From contig NVWL01000002.1 of NCBI GenBank assembly GCA_002733645.1, forward strand, positions 62,001 through 126,000: 64,000 nucleotides of DNA, in the 5' to 3' direction. Shown here piece after piece: positions 53,840 through 62,059 of the stretch; position 1 is the first letter of the stretch, and the number at the start of each line of letters is the position of its first letter. Both the position numbers and the translations under genes were made by a program. The notes beneath the pieces were generated by a model, which saw only the letters and a list, made by a program, of their open reading frames with translations, was not told the DNA's origin and made no database searches. Source of the DNA: Oceanobacter sp. (GTDB taxonomy: Bacteria; Pseudomonadota; Gammaproteobacteria; Pseudomonadales; Oceanobacteraceae).

Positions 53840-53960
53840 TCCATCTGCAGACTAGCGGCGTATAGGTAGTAACCACCCTGCGTTTAGGGGGGCATTACCA
53901 TAAAGATCAATTCGATCCTTATGATTAAAAACTACCCTGAAAGACTTGAAAGGAAATACT

Positions 53961-54308
53961 ATGAAAGCTTCTAATAAAGCGATGACTGCGATTCTTGGTA
54001 CTGCATTTGTGACTGCGATGTCAGTTGGATCAGTGAGCGCTGCAGAAAACCCATTTGCTTCTGCTGAGTTGGCACAAGGCTATCAACTTGCTGCTCATGG
54101 TGAAGGCAAGTGTGGTGAAGGCAAGTGTGGTGAAGGTAAGTGCGGTGCTAAATCTGAGTCAGAAGGTAAGTGCGGCGAAGGAAAATGTGGTGCAAAGTCA
54201 GAATCTGAAGGCAAGTGCGGCGAAGGTAAGTGCGGTGCAAAGTCAGAATCAAAAACCAAACACAGCGAAGGTAAATGTGGTGAAGGTAAATGTGGCGGTA
54301 AAAGCTGA
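53961..54308 (+). CDS. hvfA: HvfA/BufA-type RiPP precursor with nine EGKCG motifs
   Basis: 115 residues from ATG 53961, with AAGGA upstream. Sec signal peptide (about residues 1-28, ending VSAA), then NPFASAELAQGYQLA, the leader typical of bufferin/HvfA precursors. A core follows with EGKCG nine times: Cys 51, 56, 61, 71, 76, 86, 91, 106 and 111. No other Cys is present. In this family EGKCG cysteines are converted by a DUF692 enzyme to oxazolone/thioamide groups, giving a copper-binding peptide. The maturase and partner genes follow at once, so this is a complete minimal operon. Confidence 0.93.
   Translation: MKASNKAMTAILGTAFVTAMSVGSVSAAENPFASAELAQGYQLAAHGEGKCGEGKCGEGKCGAKSESEGKCGEGKCGAKSESEGKCGEGKCGAKSESKTKHSEGKCGEGKCGGKS
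54100..54300 (+). repeat. 15-bp-period repeat region of hvfA
   Basis: GGTGAAGGCAAGTGT-like units (five codons, GEGKC) recur throughout, broken by AAATCTGAGTCAGAA-like spacers. The first two are identical at DNA level. Confidence 0.9.
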
Positions 54309-54316
54309 GTGGTTGA

Positions 54317-55189
54317 ATGACTAATAATACGATTCAAGGGTCAGGTCTTGGATTACGACGCGCCTTAGCGGGCGCGTTAAAATCCAGTATCGACGCTGGT
54401 GATCAGCTTCCGATTGATTTTCTGGAAATAGCTCCAGAGAACTGGATGAATGTGGGTGGACGGTTATCTAAGCAGCTTCGGTATTTTACCGAACGCTTTC
54501 CGTTTGCTTGCCATGGGCTGTCTCTATCTATAGGTAGCCCAGCACCCCTTGATGAAGAATTTGTGCGCGATGTTGGGCGCTTTTTAGATGAACACGGGAT
54601 TGGCGTATACAGTGAGCATTTGAGCTATTGCTCCGATGTTGGCCACATGTACGATCTTATGCCGCTGCCCTTTACTGAAGAAGCCGTCAATTATGTCGCT
54701 GAGCGTATTCAGCGCGTACAAGATATTCTTGGTCGCCGCTTGATTGTGGAAAACGTATCAGCGTACGTTGAGCCGGGAAAACAAATGTCCGAGCCTGAAT
54801 TTGTGCAAGCGGTGTTGCAAAAGGCCGATTGTGACTTATTGTTGGACGTTAATAATGTTTACGTTAATTCCGTGAATCATGGCTACAACCCACACGACTA
54901 CATTACTCAAATGCCCACCGATCGCATTCGTTATTATCATATAGCGGGTCACTACACTGAAAATGATTCATTGCTGGTAGATACCCACGGTGCTGATGTG
55001 ATTGATCCTGTGTGGGCGCTACTTCAACACGCTTATGAAACGCATGGCCAGAAAGCCACCTTGCTTGAACGCGATTTTAATTTCCCTGAACTCTCTGAAC
55101 TTAGTTCGGAGCTGGAACGTATTCGTTCCTATCAAGAAGATATGTCTGATGTAGGGCCATCCCATCTAACTTCAGTGCGGGGGATTTAA
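54317..55189 (+). CDS. hvfB: DUF692 multinuclear iron oxidative enzyme (MNIO) RiPP maturase
   Basis: 290 residues of the DUF692/MNIO family. Landmarks: GLGLRRALAG at the N-terminus, FACHGLSLSIGSPAPLD, YSEHLSYCSD, LIVENVSAYVEPG, LLLDVNNVYVNSVNHGYNP and YYHIAGHYTE. His, Glu, Asp and Asn in these match the iron-ligand pattern of the TIM-barrel family. MNIO enzymes oxidise Cys residues of precursors. The start is eight bases after the hvfA stop. Together with the precursor it is of the HvfB/BufB type. Confidence 0.95.
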   Translation: MTNNTIQGSGLGLRRALAGALKSSIDAGDQLPIDFLEIAPENWMNVGGRLSKQLRYFTERFPFACHGLSLSIGSPAPLDEEFVRDVGRFLDEHGIGVYSEHLSYCSDVGHMYDLMPLPFTEEAVNYVAERIQRVQDILGRRLIVENVSAYVEPGKQMSEPEFVQAVLQKADCDLLLDVNNVYVNSVNHGYNPHDYITQMPTDRIRYYHIAGHYTENDSLLVDTHGADVIDPVWALLQHAYETHGQKATLLERDFNFPELSELSSELERIRSYQEDMSDVGPSHLTSVRGI

Positions 55190-55948
55190 ATGTCTGAGCT
55201 AGCAATAATGCAGGCTGCATTTGCCCGAGATTTACGCACAAGCGGTCATGAACAGTTCTCAGATGCTCCTGGGATGTCCATTTATCGTGAGTTGTTTTTC
55301 AATAATATTTGCGGCTTTATTGATGGCGCTTTTCCTGTATGCGCAGATGTTGTGGGAGAAGAAGGCTGGAGGTCTCTCTGTAGAGATTTCTTTTCGAGCT
55401 ACTCGTGCGATACGCCTTTATTTTTGAAGATATCTGAAGAGTTTTTAGCATACCTTCAAGCTCGCCCTGAGCTTTACCAAGACTTTCCTTATCTTGCTGA
55501 ATTAGCCCATTACGAATGGTTGGAGCTGGCTGTTGATGTGATGGAGGATGTTGATACGCCAGAGATTGATGGTGGGGATGTCGTTAATGGAATTCCTGTC
55601 GTTACTCCCGCGTTAATGACGGCTTGTTATCATTATCCTGTGCATCGAATCAGTGTAGAGACTTTAGTGACGGCTGGAGGGGGAGTCGGAGGGATAGTTG
55701 AGGAGATTTCCGGGTTTATTGTTTATCGTAATTCGGATGATTTAGTAAAGTTTGTTGCGTGTAACCCTATGACTCTCGCGATTATGGAGCACCTTTTGGC
55801 GGGGGAGCAATTAACAGGCAAAGACGCTGTGTTGGCTGTGCTTAGTATGATGGGACTTGCAGATAATGACGTTGCCATTAATGGTGGTATCGAAATACTG
55901 AACACATGGTTCTCTCAGGGGATCTTATTGGGTGCTGCAAAGCACTGA
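55190..55948 (+). CDS. hvfC: DUF2063 RiPP maturation partner
   Basis: 252 residues, starting directly after the hvfB stop. The N-terminal DUF2063 domain shows MQAAFARDLRTS and MSIYRELFFNNICGFIDGAFPVCADVVGEEGW, the family signature. The C-terminal part is less conserved and is likely the leader-recognition module. HvfC/BufC-type proteins bind the precursor and are required with the MNIO. No DoxX-like membrane gene follows, unlike in some other bufferin operons. Confidence 0.92.
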   Translation: MSELAIMQAAFARDLRTSGHEQFSDAPGMSIYRELFFNNICGFIDGAFPVCADVVGEEGWRSLCRDFFSSYSCDTPLFLKISEEFLAYLQARPELYQDFPYLAELAHYEWLELAVDVMEDVDTPEIDGGDVVNGIPVVTPALMTACYHYPVHRISVETLVTAGGGVGGIVEEISGFIVYRNSDDLVKFVACNPMTLAIMEHLLAGEQLTGKDAVLAVLSMMGLADNDVAINGGIEILNTWFSQGILLGAAKH

Positions 55949-56007
55949 TGATTCTGAGATGATGCTTTTCAAATGACGTTAAGACTCACGAATAGCGAGA
56001 AAGATTG

Positions 56008-56736
56008 GTGATCCCATCCTTAGTTAAGAGCGCACCTTCAATAATAGCCACCACTGCTGTTATAGCGTTTACCGTGCCAGTTAATGCGGCTGAAGATTAC
56101 GATCCGTTTGAAAAAACCAATCGTAAAATCTTTGCGTTTAATGATTACCTTGATCGTAATCTCCTTGTGCCAGTGGCCAAGGGGTACAATGCAATTACGC
56201 CAAGAGTCGTAAATAACGGCATTTCGAATGCCTACTCCAACGCATTAGAGCCGTTGACGACCGTTAACGATGTGGCTCAGCTGAAGTTTGGTCGAGGAGT
56301 AACGGCTGTATCCCGGTTTGTTGTTAATAGCACGGTAGGATTTTTTGGTGTGTTTGATGTGGCGAGTAAAATTGGTTTGCCAGCGCATAAAGAAGACTTC
56401 GGGCAGACCCTAGGGTATTGGGGAGTAGGGAATGGGCCTTATTTGGTGCTTCCTTTATTTGGTCCTCGAACTCTTCGGCATACGGTAGGCCACGTCGGGG
56501 ATTACTACACAGGAATGTCGTACACTTATTTCGGTGATAATTTAGGCGAAGACGCACTAATGTTCGGGTTGAAAGGTTTGGATCTTAGGGCTAGCTTGCT
56601 CGGTTCTGAAGAGTTCATTACTGGGGATCGTTACTTATTTATTCGTAGTGCTTATCTTCAGAATCAGGAATATCAGGTTAATGATGGTGTTGATGAGAAC
56701 GAATTTGAAGATGAGTTCGGTCTTTTTGATGAGTAG
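56008..56736 (+). CDS. mlaA: MlaA/VacJ-family protein without obvious lipobox
   Basis: 242 residues from GTG 56008 (an upstream TTG is possible). MlaA signature: AAEDYDPFEKTNRKIFAFNDYLDRN, VVNSTVGFFGVFDVASK, EDFGQTLGYWGVGNGPYLVLPLFGP. MlaA removes misplaced phospholipids from the outer leaflet together with porins and MlaC. The N-terminus has a hydrophobic signal ending in PVNAAE, which suits signal peptidase I; no Cys lipobox is visible, unlike E. coli MlaA. A strong terminator follows. Confidence 0.9.
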   Translation: MIPSLVKSAPSIIATTAVIAFTVPVNAAEDYDPFEKTNRKIFAFNDYLDRNLLVPVAKGYNAITPRVVNNGISNAYSNALEPLTTVNDVAQLKFGRGVTAVSRFVVNSTVGFFGVFDVASKIGLPAHKEDFGQTLGYWGVGNGPYLVLPLFGPRTLRHTVGHVGDYYTGMSYTYFGDNLGEDALMFGLKGLDLRASLLGSEEFITGDRYLFIRSAYLQNQEYQVNDGVDENEFEDEFGLFDE

Positions 56737-56774
56737 GTATTTCTATCTATCACTGTGTTTCTTTAAAAACAGAT

Positions 56775-56804
56775 AAAAAAGGCCTCTAAATAGAGGCCTT
56801 TTTT
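56775..56804. terminator. Bidirectional intrinsic terminator
   Basis: AAAAAAGGCCTCTA-AA-TAGAGGCCTTTTTT: a symmetric hairpin with A- and T-tracts between mlaA (+) and the DAHP synthase gene (-). Confidence 0.94.
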
Positions 56805-56819
56805 ATGTTTGTCATTTAA

Positions 56820-58151
56820 TTACTTGCGGCGAGTAGGGAGTACGCTTTTTAGCTTCTCATGCATTTTGCGAATTGCGTCTTCAGTTTCTTCCCAGCCGAT
56901 GCAGCCGTCAGTTACTGATAAGCCGTATTCAAGATCATCCAGGTTCGCCGGAATATTTTGGCGGCCATGTTTGATGTTGGATTCAATCATTAAACCAACG
57001 ATGGACTTGTTGCCTTCCAGAATTTGGTTGGTAACGTTATCCATTACTAGTGGCTGCAATGCCGGGTTTTTGTTCGAGTTTTCATGGCTGCAATCAATCA
57101 TGATATTGGCTGCTAGGTCTGACTTTTCTAACGCTTCCTCAGCAATTTTAACGTTGACTGAGTCGTAGTTTGGCTTGCCACCGCCGCCGCGCAATACTAC
57201 GTGAGCGTATGGGTTGCCCTTGGTCGATACGATAGATACTTGGCCGGATTGATCAATACCCAAGAAGCGGTGCGGGTTAGCTGCCGACTTCAGTGCGTTG
57301 GTGGCCACGGTAAGGCTACCGTCGGTGCCATTTTTAAAGCCTACCGCTGATGATAACCCAGAGGCCATTTCGCGGTGGGTTTGTGATTCAGTCGTTCGGG
57401 CGCCAATGGCTGACCATGCAATCAAATCTTGAACATACTGAGGCGAGATTGGATCAAGCGCTTCTGTTGATAGAGGTAAGCCCAGCTCAGAAAGATCCAA
57501 TAACAGACGGCGGGCAATGTGCAGGCCGTCCTGAATCTTAAAGGTGTCGTTCATGTAGGGGTCGTTGATTAAGCCTTTCCAGCCAACCGTGGTACGTGGT
57601 TTTTCAAAGTACACTCGCATAACTAGGTAGATGGTGTCGCTGACTTCTTCAGCGAGATCGCGTAAGCGTTCGGCGTATTCTTTGGCGGCATCGACATCAT
57701 GAATTGAACACGGGCCGACCACAGCGAAGATGCGGTGATCGCTGCCATCGAGAATGTTGCGAATGACTTCACGCCCTTTTGTTACGCTAGTTACCGCAGA
57801 TTCTGAAATAGGCATTTCTTTTTTCAGTTGTTGCGGTGTGATTAGTGGCGCTATGGATTCAATGTTTAAGTCTTCTACGCGATTGTCAGTCATGGTTTTA
57901 CTACCTGTATTTTCTGCAATTGGCTTTGCCAGTTTGTTATTGGCTTTAAAATTGTCTGTGGATTCGTGTTGAGAAGACGCTGCTTTGAGCGCTCCTTTGG
58001 TGATGTTCTCAATTTGATTTTGACGCCCCAGAGGTGGAGAGTTGCCCCACTGAGAGACTGCTGCCGCAGTTAAAGGCCAGCCGTCTTCCGAGCAGGCCTT
58101 CGCGATTGCACTTTTGGTTTTAAAGTAGGATACAACGTCGGCTGTCTTCAT
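56820..58151 (-). CDS. aroF: Cro-like HTH domain fused to DAHP synthase (class I)
   Basis: 443 residues from ATG 58151. Residues 1-58 (ADVVSYFKTKSAIAKAC, AAAVSQWGNSPPLGRQ, ENITKGALKA) match the Cro-type helix-turn-helix of P22-like Cro repressors. A 28-residue linker leads to a full DAHP synthase from Met87, showing VVGPCSIHD, KPRTTVGWKGLINDPYM, VVLRGGGGKPNYD and MIDCSHENSNK. An internal start at 57893 would give a normal-length 357-residue enzyme, with only a weak ribosome site. DAHP synthase makes the first shikimate intermediate. The frame is continuous without a stop, so either a fusion or two products are possible. The aroF/G/H type is not settled. Confidence 0.88.
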   Translation of the reverse strand: MKTADVVSYFKTKSAIAKACSEDGWPLTAAAVSQWGNSPPLGRQNQIENITKGALKAASSQHESTDNFKANNKLAKPIAENTGSKTMTDNRVEDLNIESIAPLITPQQLKKEMPISESAVTSVTKGREVIRNILDGSDHRIFAVVGPCSIHDVDAAKEYAERLRDLAEEVSDTIYLVMRVYFEKPRTTVGWKGLINDPYMNDTFKIQDGLHIARRLLLDLSELGLPLSTEALDPISPQYVQDLIAWSAIGARTTESQTHREMASGLSSAVGFKNGTDGSLTVATNALKSAANPHRFLGIDQSGQVSIVSTKGNPYAHVVLRGGGGKPNYDSVNVKIAEEALEKSDLAANIMIDCSHENSNKNPALQPLVMDNVTNQILEGNKSIVGLMIESNIKHGRQNIPANLDDLEYGLSVTDGCIGWEETEDAIRKMHEKLKSVLPTRRK

Positions 58152-58194
58152 AGTCTCAGATTAAGTTATCTTAGTATGAAGTCAGGATATGAAC

Positions 58195-58217
58195 TTAACT
58201 TTATTAAGTAAAGTTAA
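58195..58217. promoter_or_regulatory. Perfect inverted repeat upstream of DAHP synthase gene
   Basis: TTAACTTTA-N5-TAAAGTTAA, a 9-bp perfect stem, lies 44 bases upstream of the Cro-DAHP start and just after the HTH gene. No U-tract follows on the minus strand, so it fits an operator better than a terminator. Confidence 0.6.
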
Positions 58218-58220
58218 TTT

Positions 58221-58397
58221 TTAGCGAAGTTTGGCTTGGATCTCTTTGAATTTCTCAACGTTAGGGCGTTCGAATAACATAGGTTGTGCTTTTCCGGTGC
58301 TGTCGAGCAAGCCTTCTTTGGCGTATCGCTTGACGGTGACAGGTTTGATTTCAAGGAATGTGGCAACTTCTTCGATGGTCATTAGTTGTTCTGACAT
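58221..58397 (-). CDS. Small excisionase/MerR-like HTH protein (58 residues)
   Basis: The protein reads MSEQLMTIEEVATFLEIKPV, then TVKRYAKEGLLDSTGK and ends VEKFKEIQAKLR. The pattern xTIEEVAxFLxIKxVTVxRYxxEGLL is a helix-turn-helix of the excisionase/MerR (HTH_17) type. A start ATG is preceded by GAGAGG. It is too short to have another domain. It lies directly upstream of the Cro-DAHP synthase gene on the same strand, with an inverted repeat in the 69-base gap. Confidence 0.85.
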   Translation of the reverse strand: MSEQLMTIEEVATFLEIKPVTVKRYAKEGLLDSTGKAQPMLFERPNVEKFKEIQAKLR

Positions 58398-58528
58398 GGC
58401 TTGGCCTCTCTTTGGGTCTGTCTTCTGATCTGTTTTTGGTGGTGTGTTGTGGCAATGAGAGAAGTCTAGTTGGTCGTATTAAAGATGCGAGAAGGTAGGT
58501 TTGATGTTTTGATTGTGGCGCCTGACTA

Positions 58529-58548
58529 GACTGACATCCGTGTCGGTC
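58529..58548 (-). terminator. Possible hairpin after TSUP gene
   Basis: GACCGACA-N4-TGTCAGTC (one mismatch) lies just past the stop codon of the sulfite-exporter-like gene on the minus strand. It lacks a U-run, so it is only a possible terminator. Confidence 0.3.
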
Positions 58549-58553
58549 TGTAA

Positions 58554-59327
58554 TTAGAAGATCATGTAGCGAATGCCCATGCCCAGTAAGAGGGTCGCGA
58601 GGGCGGTGCGGAGTATGGCATCGGGAACCTTCCTGCTCAGTAGGCTACCTAAATGGATGGCTGGTATTGAGCCAACCAGTAGCGCTCCTAGCAGCATGAA
58701 GTCCACATTGCCCATGGCCATGTGGATAGCGCCTGCGGCCAGTGTTAGGGGGACGGCGTGCGCAATGTCGGTGCCTACAATGTGAGTGCCGCGTAAGGCA
58801 GGGTAAAGAATCATTAAGATGGCGGTGCCAATTGCTCCCGCTCCTACGGATGATAAGGTGACAAAAACACCCAGAAGCACACCCATAACGATGGTTGCGT
58901 GGGGGCGCAAATGTGCCAGTCGTCCGGCAGACCTGGCAGTAGCGAAATCTTGTATTTTTTTACGCATCAAAATAACGATGGCAGTTAGCGTGAGCATAAT
59001 GCCAAGCGCATTTTTAAGCAGGTGGCCGTAATCCTCTGCTCCGGTGAAAAAAGTACTTAGCAAATAGCCGGTGATAAGTGCCGAAGGGAGGCTGCCTATT
59101 GCTAGAAGCTTTACTAGTCCCCATTTGATGTGACGTTGCTGATGGTGGCTGTAAGCACCGCTTGCTTTTGTTAATCCGGCATAGAGTAAATCGGTCCCAA
59201 CAGCAGTGTGCGCGGGAAAGCCAAAGGATAGGAGAAGTGGGGTCATGAGTGCGCCACCACCAATTCCTGTTACGCCAACAACTAAGCCGACGGCAGCTCC
59301 GGCGGCGATATATAACAAAATATCCAT
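58554..59327 (-). CDS. TSUP-family (TauE/SafE) permease
   Basis: 257 residues with about eight hydrophobic segments. GVTGIGGGALMTPLLLSFGFPAHTAVGTDLLYAGLTKASGA is the family's first repeat, and VTLSSVGAGAIGTAILMILYP with GTDIAHAVPLTLAAG forms the second. TSUP proteins carry sulfite, taurine-derived or other organosulfur anions. Its divergent neighbour is cysB and cysH follows, so a sulfur-related substrate is likely by context. Confidence 0.9.
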   Translation of the reverse strand: MDILLYIAAGAAVGLVVGVTGIGGGALMTPLLLSFGFPAHTAVGTDLLYAGLTKASGAYSHHQQRHIKWGLVKLLAIGSLPSALITGYLLSTFFTGAEDYGHLLKNALGIMLTLTAIVILMRKKIQDFATARSAGRLAHLRPHATIVMGVLLGVFVTLSSVGAGAIGTAILMILYPALRGTHIVGTDIAHAVPLTLAAGAIHMAMGNVDFMLLGALLVGSIPAIHLGSLLSRKVPDAILRTALATLLLGMGIRYMIF

Positions 59328-59532
59328 TAATTCGACTACATTAATACTGTGAGACTATATAGAAGGCGACAATGTAGTCGCTGTCATCTATTCTGGAAAG
59401 GAATATTTGTTTATATTTTTATAACTAATTATTCAGTTTTGATTCTGCTTGGGGCATGGTTGCTTCGCAGTGTTGGAGTGTTAGCGGCACGTTGTTAAGA
59501 AGTTTGCTGCGCTGGTGAGTCATTTAATGTGA

Positions 59533-60528
<996 letters not shown>

Positions 60529-60538
60529 TTTTTTTGTA

Positions 60539-61264
60539 TTAACCTTTCGAGATGATATTACCTGCATGAAGTCCGCACTCTTTGTGCGTGGCTTCTTCCC
60601 ACCACCATCGGCCTTCGCGTTCGTGTTGGTTTGGTAGGACTGGGCGAGTACACGGCTCGCAGCCGATGCTTGTAAAGCCTTGCTCATGTAGCTTATTAAA
60701 AGGCACATCAAACAATCGAATGTATTCCCACACTTGAGATGACGTCCAGTTCGCCAGTGGGTTGTACTTCGTTAAGTTGCCACTTAGTCCCTTGAATGTG
60801 GTATCTGCTTCGACAATGTTGACGTCGGAGCGGGTGGGGCTTTGGTCTTTACGCTGACCCGTTATCCAAGCATCAAGCGTGGAGAGTTTTTGGCGAAGCG
60901 GAGTGATTTTACGGATGCCGCAACATTCTTGGTGGCCATCTTCAAAGAAGCTGTATAGCCCTTTTTCTTTAACGAAAGATTGAAGGCTGGCTTGCTCTGG
61001 TGTGCGTACATCTATACGAATACCGTAATGTTTGCTGACTTCCTCAATAAAACGATAGGTTTCAGGGTGGAGGCGACCGGTGTCTAGTGTAAATATATCG
61101 GCATTGGGGTTCAGCTTGACGGCCATGTCAACAAGGATAACGTCTTCAGCGCCACTGAAAGAGACACCTATAGTGCTGTGTTGCTCAAAAGCGTGACGAA
61201 TAATATCTTTAGGTCTGCTCTCGGCGAAGCCAGTGTTTAATGCTTCAAAGTCGGTAGGGGCCAT
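60539..61264 (-). CDS. cysH: Assimilatory adenylyl-sulfate (APS-type) reductase CysH
   Basis: 241 residues from ATG 61264 with AGGAAA upstream; an in-frame ATG at 61321 would add residues outside the family. The [11 protein letters not shown] and [10 protein letters not shown] motifs provide four Cys for a [4Fe-4S] cluster, which marks the APS-using type rather than the E. coli PAPS type. The catalytic Cys sits in KECGLH near the C-terminus. It makes sulfite for cysteine synthesis, with electrons from thioredoxin. It lies tail to tail with cysB. Confidence 0.93.
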
Positions 61265-61441
61265 GCTGAGTTTCCTAAGTGTTTGATAAAAAATTATTTT
61301 ATCATGGGCTTGATAGGTCAAATAAGACTAAAAACGAATATTCTTAGTCTGTGAAGTGATTTTGGGCAACATTGGTTGTTTTTGAAAAAGCTTCTGGCTA
61401 GAGTACCGGCTTTTATATTGTCCTGAATCGTTGGAGTATCC

Positions 61442-62059
61442 ATGGAAATCGCATGTTTAGATCTAGAGGGTGTACTGGTTCCTGAAATTTGGATCGAGTT
61501 TGCTAATAAAACTGGCATTGAAGAATTGAAAGCGACCACGCGCGATATTCCAGATTACGACGTGTTAATGAAGCAGCGTTTGGCGCTACTGGATCAGCAC
61601 GGTTTTAAGTTGCAGGATATTCAGGATGTTATTGCCACGCTTTCGCCATTAGAAGGCGCTGCTGAATTTGTTAACTGGTTACGTGAGCGTTTCCAGGTAA
61701 TTATTCTGTCTGATACGTTTTATGAATTTTCTCAGCCGCTAATGCGTCAGTTGGGCTTTCCTACGTTATTTTGTCACCGTCTCGTGACGAATGATGAAGG
61801 TCGGGTTGTGGATTATAAATTACGTCAGGCTGATCCTAAGCGCCAGTCTATCCGTGCTTTGCAGACAATTTATTATCGTACAATTGCGGCTGGTGATTCT
61901 TATAACGATACTACTATGTTGGCTGAAGCCGATGCGGGCATTTTGTTTCATGCGCCGCAAAACGTGATAGAAGAATTTCCGCAATTCCCAGCTGTGCATA
62001 CATTTGAAGAACTCAAGAAAGAGTTTATCAAAGCGAGTAATCGCGACTTAACACTTTAA
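61442..62059 (+). CDS. thrH: ThrH: phosphoserine phosphatase / homoserine phosphotransferase
   Basis: 205 residues of the HAD superfamily. DLEGVLVPEIWIEFANKTG holds the first motif (Asp nucleophile), VIILSDTFYEF the second (Ser/Thr), and AGDSYNDTTMLAEADAGI the acidic motif. This is the ThrH pattern known from Pseudomonas, which can move phosphate from phosphoserine to homoserine. The start is an ATG after GGAGTATCC. It is divergent from cysH with a 177-base gap holding both promoters. Confidence 0.93.
   Translation: MEIACLDLEGVLVPEIWIEFANKTGIEELKATTRDIPDYDVLMKQRLALLDQHGFKLQDIQDVIATLSPLEGAAEFVNWLRERFQVIILSDTFYEFSQPLMRQLGFPTLFCHRLVTNDEGRVVDYKLRQADPKRQSIRALQTIYYRTIAAGDSYNDTTMLAEADAGILFHAPQNVIEEFPQFPAVHTFEELKKEFIKASNRDLTL

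Follow-up and report, generated by a model that had tools for sequence, protein, structure and literature searches.

The locus examined here raises the question of whether an enzyme at the entry of the aromatic pathway may also act as the regulator of its own gene. Entry into this pathway is usually governed by feedback inhibition and by separate regulators such as TyrR and TrpR. In the window, a stretch of 64,000 nucleotides from Oceanobacter sp., a helix-turn-helix (HTH) domain of phage Cro type stands in frame with a DAHP synthase, so that a phage switch domain appears to make a single protein of regulator and enzyme. A first-pass annotation had described this arrangement as a possible regulatory fusion that might report flux or aromatic amino acid levels to its own promoter, and had named as its alternative a short leader running into an enzyme made from an internal start.

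Gene architecture and domain identity

The N-terminal part of the fusion matched the Pfam family P22_Cro (PF14549) over residues 2-61 (E 1.2e-11; 44.7 bits vs a cut-off of 30.2), and scores of 42.6-49.4 bits across nine genomes of the same genus of marine bacteria likewise exceeded this curated cut-off. The HTH had previously been placed at residues 1-58; the domain is indeed present, with the Pfam match running on to residue 61. At the sequence level P22 Cro was the only PDB match (E 0.0018); compared with it, the HTH region of the fusion carries a five-residue insertion ahead of the recognition helix. The C-terminal part was assigned to a class I DAHP synthase by Pfam DAHP_synth_1 (PF00793; residues 127-425 of the fusion, E 1.1e-82) and by NCBIfam, as subfamily PRK12755.1 of AroF type over residues 87-437 (E 8e-160) and as aroFGH (TIGR00034) over residues 93-435. 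The motifs GPCSIHD, EKPRTTVGWKG, KNGTDG, DCSH, ES, and TD, which we take to be the metal- and substrate-binding motifs, align with those of solved AroF and AroG, and the complete catalytic part, with 348 residues aligned to 6agl, is apparently intact by these comparisons. Among solved structures the best scores came from Tyr-sensitive AroF chains (432 bits vs 378 for the Phe-sensitive one). An enzyme and a domain of DNA-binding type are united in one protein, the arrangement looked for in a trigger enzyme. The coordinates of all features are collected in Table 1.

Table 1. Features of the fusion locus, with positions counted from the first letter of the window.
Feature	Position	Strand	Basis
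Fusion gene, 443 codons: P22-Cro-type HTH, linker, and class I DAHP synthase	56820..58151	(-)	Open frame, Pfam, NCBIfam
P22_Cro domain, residues 1-61	57969..58151	(-)	Pfam match, AF2, Foldseek, pN/pS
Recognition helix region, T28-W35 (TAAAVSQW)	inside the P22_Cro domain, 57969..58151	(-)	
Linker, residues 59-86	57894..57977	(-)	Sequence and length unconstrained, always in frame
Class I DAHP synthase, AroF type, 357 aa	56820..57893	(-)	Pfam, NCBIfam, solved chains, pN/pS
Internal ATG (Met87)	57891..57893	(-)	Met in 9/9 fused proteins; also the start in the 21 unfused relatives read
Shine-Dalgarno-like AGGT before the internal start	57903..57906	(-)	Anti-Shine-Dalgarno pairing
Box 1, operator-like, ATTAAC-TTTA-CTTAAT	58203..58218	(-)	Conserved in 8/9 genomes, weaker in L002, absent in L007
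Box 3, operator-like, ACTAAG-ATAA-CTTAAT	58160..58175	(-)	Conserved in 9/9 genomes
Terminator-like hairpin 3' of the fusion gene	56773..56806	readable on both strands	

Distribution of the fusion

A match to the fusion was present in 54 of 55 genomes of relatives, its own included. All nine same-genus genomes were matched from residue 1, in frame and stop-free, in agreement with the first-pass description of a continuous frame joining a Cro-type HTH to a complete DAHP synthase from Met87. In the 45 other matched relatives the HTH was missing, the alignment beginning only at residue 61 or later, and none of the 21 frames read among them carried the domain. A stop codon between the two parts in close relatives, which the annotation had named among the observations that would speak against a fusion, was sought and found in none of the nine genus genomes; relatives further away just lack the HTH. 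Because all nine genomes share one stop-free frame despite linker lengths of 15 to 28 aa, the 443-codon frame is, on this comparison, more than a chance open frame.

Wider searches returned few comparable proteins. Scanning a collection of species genomes with the HTH alignment, by means of two narrow peptide patterns, yielded seven loci (five Thalassolituus, one Oleibacter marinus, and one Oceanospirillaceae bacterium), which are seven of the nine genus genomes. Across 293 genomes of the order, nine matched the first 86 residues; five of these belong to the genus and are fused, and the other four matches lie in frames of only 89-162 aa. Across 369 genomes of the class, a P22_Cro match was found in 29 and, besides the window's own, seven frames of at least 250 aa contained one (G499, G605, G349, G675, G536, G668, and G672); a DAHP synthase was present in none of the three of these seven that were inspected (G499, G605, and G675). 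Two of the inspected loci, L103 in G499 and L105 in G605, carry the P22_Cro match in longer frames (313 and 320 aa, respectively), the remainder of which contains no DAHP synthase.

The fused copy is the sole P22_Cro match in eight of the nine genus genomes, G001 having a second, short one. This second copy (L031, 1456-1704) encodes an unfused 82-aa protein of P22_Cro type and is transcribed divergently from the gene of a phage-repressor-like HTH protein of 245 aa; within this genus, then, the pair probably represents a prophage switch. A class II DAHP synthase was detected in none of the nine genomes and a second class I enzyme only in G007, so that the fusion is the only DAHP synthase found in eight of nine, two of these eight being assemblies of 80% (G004) and 84% (G005) completeness.

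Selection and predicted fold

In order to compare constraint along the protein, pN/pS was averaged over the 36 pairs of the nine genus genomes, pairs that are not independent of one another. The mean was lowest in the enzyme part (0.104), somewhat higher in the HTH (0.25), and 0.985 in the linker; pN was below pS in 36/36 pairs for both enzyme and HTH and in 18/36 for the linker. By this measure the HTH is under purifying selection as a protein and the linker is not. Furthermore, the recognition-helix residues T28, A30, A31, V32, Q34, and W35 are invariant in all nine fused proteins.

An AF2 model of the isolated HTH (62 residues) had a pLDDT of 86.2 and five helices. The first Foldseek match of this model was P22 Cro (1rzs; 39% identity, E 4.4e-3, TM 0.78, rmsd 0.9); N15 Cro came next at E 0.58, and no match had an E of 0.001 or lower. 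A full-length model built from seven sequences reached a mean pLDDT of 45.8, with the enzyme poorly modelled, and only its HTH and linker were used. The linker, at pLDDT 26-29, is predicted to be disordered.

Operator-like sites upstream of the fusion gene

Alignment of the upstream regions revealed two P22-operator-like 6-4-6 palindromes. Box 1 has the form ATTAAC-TTTA-CTTAAY across the genus, with 10/12 matches to ATTAAG-N4-CTTAAT in seven of nine genomes and 9/12 in L002, and box 3 is close to AYTAAG-NNNN-CTTAAY, with 10/12 matches in all nine. The starts of the two boxes are 42-44 bp apart in all eight genomes that have both. A 23-bp palindrome at 58195-58217 had been put forward earlier for a test of DNA binding; sites do occur upstream, but that palindrome is peculiar to this genome, and what is conserved is box 1 together with box 3, the latter unnamed in the earlier description. 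In L006, about 70 bases ahead of the fusion start, extra bases between box 3 and the start contain, judged by eye, an 18-codon ATG frame ending one base before the fusion ATG.

Within 200 bp of the nine fused genes, 16 sites with at least 10/12 matches were counted vs 0.25 expected from dinucleotide shuffles, a figure to be read in light of the consensus ATTAAG-N4-CTTAAT having been chosen post hoc (with the promoters and the P22 site already known) and of the nine genomes being related. The 20 unfused promoters, a set from which the 21st (L019) was left out, held one such site vs 0.41 expected. A matrix built solely from four P22 operators provided a fairer test and a weaker result: p was at or below 0.05 in four of nine fused promoter regions vs none of 21 unfused ones, the other five of nine fused promoters not being significant, and box 1 or box 3 ranked as the best or second-best window in eight of nine fused promoters.

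The recognition helix of the fusion, TAAAVSQW, resembles that of P22 Cro. Hall and others are said to have related Cro helices to half-sites in 2005. In a comparison of six phages, made with no statistic, TTAAG/CTTAA sites were present for P22 and phi21, whose Cro proteins are near-identical (SDAAVSQW), and one such site was found for BUCT566 (PSAVTQW). For the Cro proteins of Valp1 (KQAISKW), D14O (YEAVRQW), and mEp390 (HASVSGW) no site was found at 9/12 or better.

Elsewhere in the nine genomes, box 1 with at most one mismatch occurs in 0-2 copies per genome, and its seven exact copies lie only at the fusion promoter. A looser pattern occurs 2-9 times per genome, for a total of 32 matches vs 36 for the reversed control. 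Twelve loci were inspected, the fusion promoter among them; each of the remaining 11 sites was confined to one or two genomes. A wider regulon was rejected on these two counts. Three of the 11 recur in two genomes each, the first inside a coding frame (L077/L080), the second overlapping the beginning of a gene (L087/L081), and the third adjoining what by eye is a transposon-like gene pair (L078/L070). No promoter consensus was detected by a scan of 56700-58600, and as regards RNA regulation no Rfam family reached the gathering threshold in 54000-62000.

Two translation starts

Anti-Shine-Dalgarno pairing before the first ATG of the fusion is poor, with a mean of -0.44 kcal/mol and one of nine genomes at -3 or below. 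Before the internal Met the mean is -3.92 kcal/mol, all nine genomes lying at -3.3 or below, and the starts of unfused relatives pair likewise (mean -4.03 kcal/mol; 20/21). As background, four of the 84 remaining Met codons in the enzyme part pair at -3 kcal/mol or below. A Gly codon stands three or four codons ahead of the internal Met in all nine linkers. Two controls bear on how this signal is read. Under synonymous recoding, random codons equalled the Shine-Dalgarno-like signal in 65 of 500 trials, and within the linker windows 0 to 30% of other positions pair equally well, the worst cases being L008 (19%) and L009 (30%); selection on the internal start signal is therefore unproven.

Initiation at the poorly paired first ATG may be leaderless or inefficient. 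One gene with two products, with and without the HTH, is predicted from these start contexts. The proposal of an internal start at 57893 thus stands in part: that start is favoured by its pairing in all nine genomes vs one of nine for the first ATG, but a pure leader upstream of it does not agree with purifying selection on the HTH, which rules out a relic or pure leader as the main reading. The ideas of a fusion regulator and of an internal start are compatible.

Proposed mechanism and alternative explanations

The fusion is probably a self-repressing DAHP synthase of which one form carries the HTH and a second form lacks it. A phage-type HTH on the enzyme is accompanied by phage-type sites before the same gene, and the enzyme therefore probably controls its own production. 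In the proposed mechanism, a phage Cro-type domain would have been joined to an existing aroF gene, and the HTH would bind box 1 and box 3 as two P22-like operators just upstream of the fusion gene. Binding would probably occur as part of the enzyme oligomer, in which several HTH domains are brought together, with the two operators on one DNA face. With more enzyme the operators would fill and transcription would fall. The same message would probably also yield HTH-free enzyme from the internal ATG, so that catalytic subunits could be made without each being a repressor. Binding, repression, oligomer bridging, and use of both starts are what we infer from sequence; as no promoter was located, it is also by inference that repression is preferred to activation. 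Weighing against the model are the five-residue insertion in the HTH region relative to P22 Cro, the five of nine promoters that were not significant with the matrix of P22 operators, and a Shine-Dalgarno-like signal that does not exceed what the encoded amino acids provide. The sequence part of the original suggestion of a regulatory fusion holds up, with the frame kept in nine of nine genomes, the HTH under selection, and P22-like sites at its own promoter.

Whether the protein reports more than its own amount leads to the first of the alternatives, a full trigger enzyme in which Tyr, Phe, PEP, or E4P switches operator binding and so conveys both pathway state and enzyme amount. This reading extends self-repression and is compatible with it, and it is possible, if somewhat unlikely. 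It would fit the closeness to Tyr-sensitive AroF chains and the finding of no other DAHP synthase in eight of nine genomes. In E. coli AroG, moreover, the N-terminal tail helps to form the inhibitor site; because the HTH is attached to this tail, tyrosine or another ligand may possibly gate DNA binding. Tight mechanical coupling is less likely, however, because the linker is long, variable, and predicted to be disordered. A more far-reaching version, taken as a whole, is unlikely: the only DAHP synthase of the cell would be a metabolite-gated self-repressor by virtue of a domesticated phage Cro domain, HTH-bearing and HTH-free subunits from one message would form mixed tetramers, a tetramer would bridge the two operators, which are some four helical turns apart, and feedback would be as strong as the ratio between the two starts makes it.

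The remaining explanations assign the HTH a smaller or a different part. If it were a little-used extension, nearly all protein would come from 57893 and the upstream frame would serve mainly as a leader, as the poor pairing at the first ATG and the good pairing at the internal one might indicate; purifying selection on the HTH as a protein, its invariant recognition helix, and the operator-like sites adjoining its frame make this quite improbable. Control of other genes, or activation, in which the fusion promoter would be just one target among several, is very improbable: the sign of regulation is unreadable from the sequence, the promoter scan was empty, and looser sites do recur in each genome, but these are no more frequent than in the reversed control, and none of the 11 others inspected is shared among more than two genomes. 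A post-translational cut that separates the Cro-like repressor from an ordinary enzyme would suit a linker that looks exposed and unconstrained, but the nine linkers contain no conserved cleavage motif and the frame is kept open in every genome, leaving cleavage a remote prospect. Self-repression by a protein made in two forms is the preferred reading.

Comparison with known systems

By analogy, the fusion would work like a trigger enzyme of the PutA type. PutA of E. coli is an enzyme repressing the putA/putP spacer only (PMC8249747). In both cases an enzyme of metabolism includes a domain of DNA-binding type, and the fusion, like PutA, would act at its own promoter and on very few targets. 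PutA is catabolic and senses proline; the fusion is biosynthetic, bears a phage Cro domain, has predicted binding, and may give an HTH-free form from its second start. BzdR contains a shikimate-kinase-like domain that has lost activity and binds benzoyl-CoA (PMC3602430). It shares with the fusion an N-terminal HTH, a linker, and a domain related to a shikimate-pathway enzyme. Unlike BzdR's enzyme-like domain, the catalytic part of the fusion is apparently intact, with its enzyme motifs retained in what is the only DAHP synthase found in eight of nine genomes.

Two forms from one gene, with and without an N-terminal domain, are described for IncC of plasmid RK2, and the forms mix (PMC2666795). 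The resemblance consists of two in-frame starts and an N-terminal domain affecting DNA binding that is present or absent; IncC differs as a partition ATPase both forms of which were detected by blot, whereas the two forms of the fusion are predicted. Phage P22 Cro (PF14549; 1rzs) has in common with the fusion its fold, the recognition helix AAVSQW, and TTAAG/CTTAA sites, but is a free 61-aa phage protein, whereas here the domain is joined to an enzyme in a host gene. The AroF-type class I DAHP synthase 6agl shares the complete catalytic part, the E. coli enzyme being without a DNA-binding domain. Among the matches listed, no HTH-DAHP synthase fusion appeared in open-access titles or abstract openings, and nothing was found in the open-access literature for Thalassolituus together with DAHP synthase.

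Genomic context and origin

The gene order around the fusion is MbnB/TglH-type, DUF2063, mlaA, aroF, small HTH, tauE, cysB, cysH, and thrH. The same order is present in the sister-genus genome L109 with aroF unfused; in L108, another sister-genus genome, matches within 10 kb were limited to cysB and aroF. Since the order of the locus is common to the unfused L109, the HTH was gained by, or lost from, a pre-existing locus. The locus being syntenic yet unfused in the sister genus, it offers a natural experiment on an enzyme gaining a regulator. Among the neighbours compared around the host fusion gene there were no phage genes. The enzyme tree did not recover the nine fused proteins as one clade (three changes), and a single clade was not rejected (AU p 0.255). 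A donor phage was not found: the best 20 of 94 phage records were 30-46% identical, and one viral contig was 43% identical.

Directly upstream of the fusion and on the same strand lies a 58-aa MerR/excisionase-like HTH gene (HTH_17; 58221-58397, (-)), with tblastn matches in seven of nine genus genomes, its own included, and in the sister-genus L109. On the opposite strand, 53946-55948 (+) encodes a peptide rich in Cys with EGKCG repeats, for which Pfam gave no match, and after it a RiPP enzyme of the MbnB/TglH/ChrH type (PF05114) and a DUF2063 protein, which together look like a bufferin-like, metal-binding RiPP operon.
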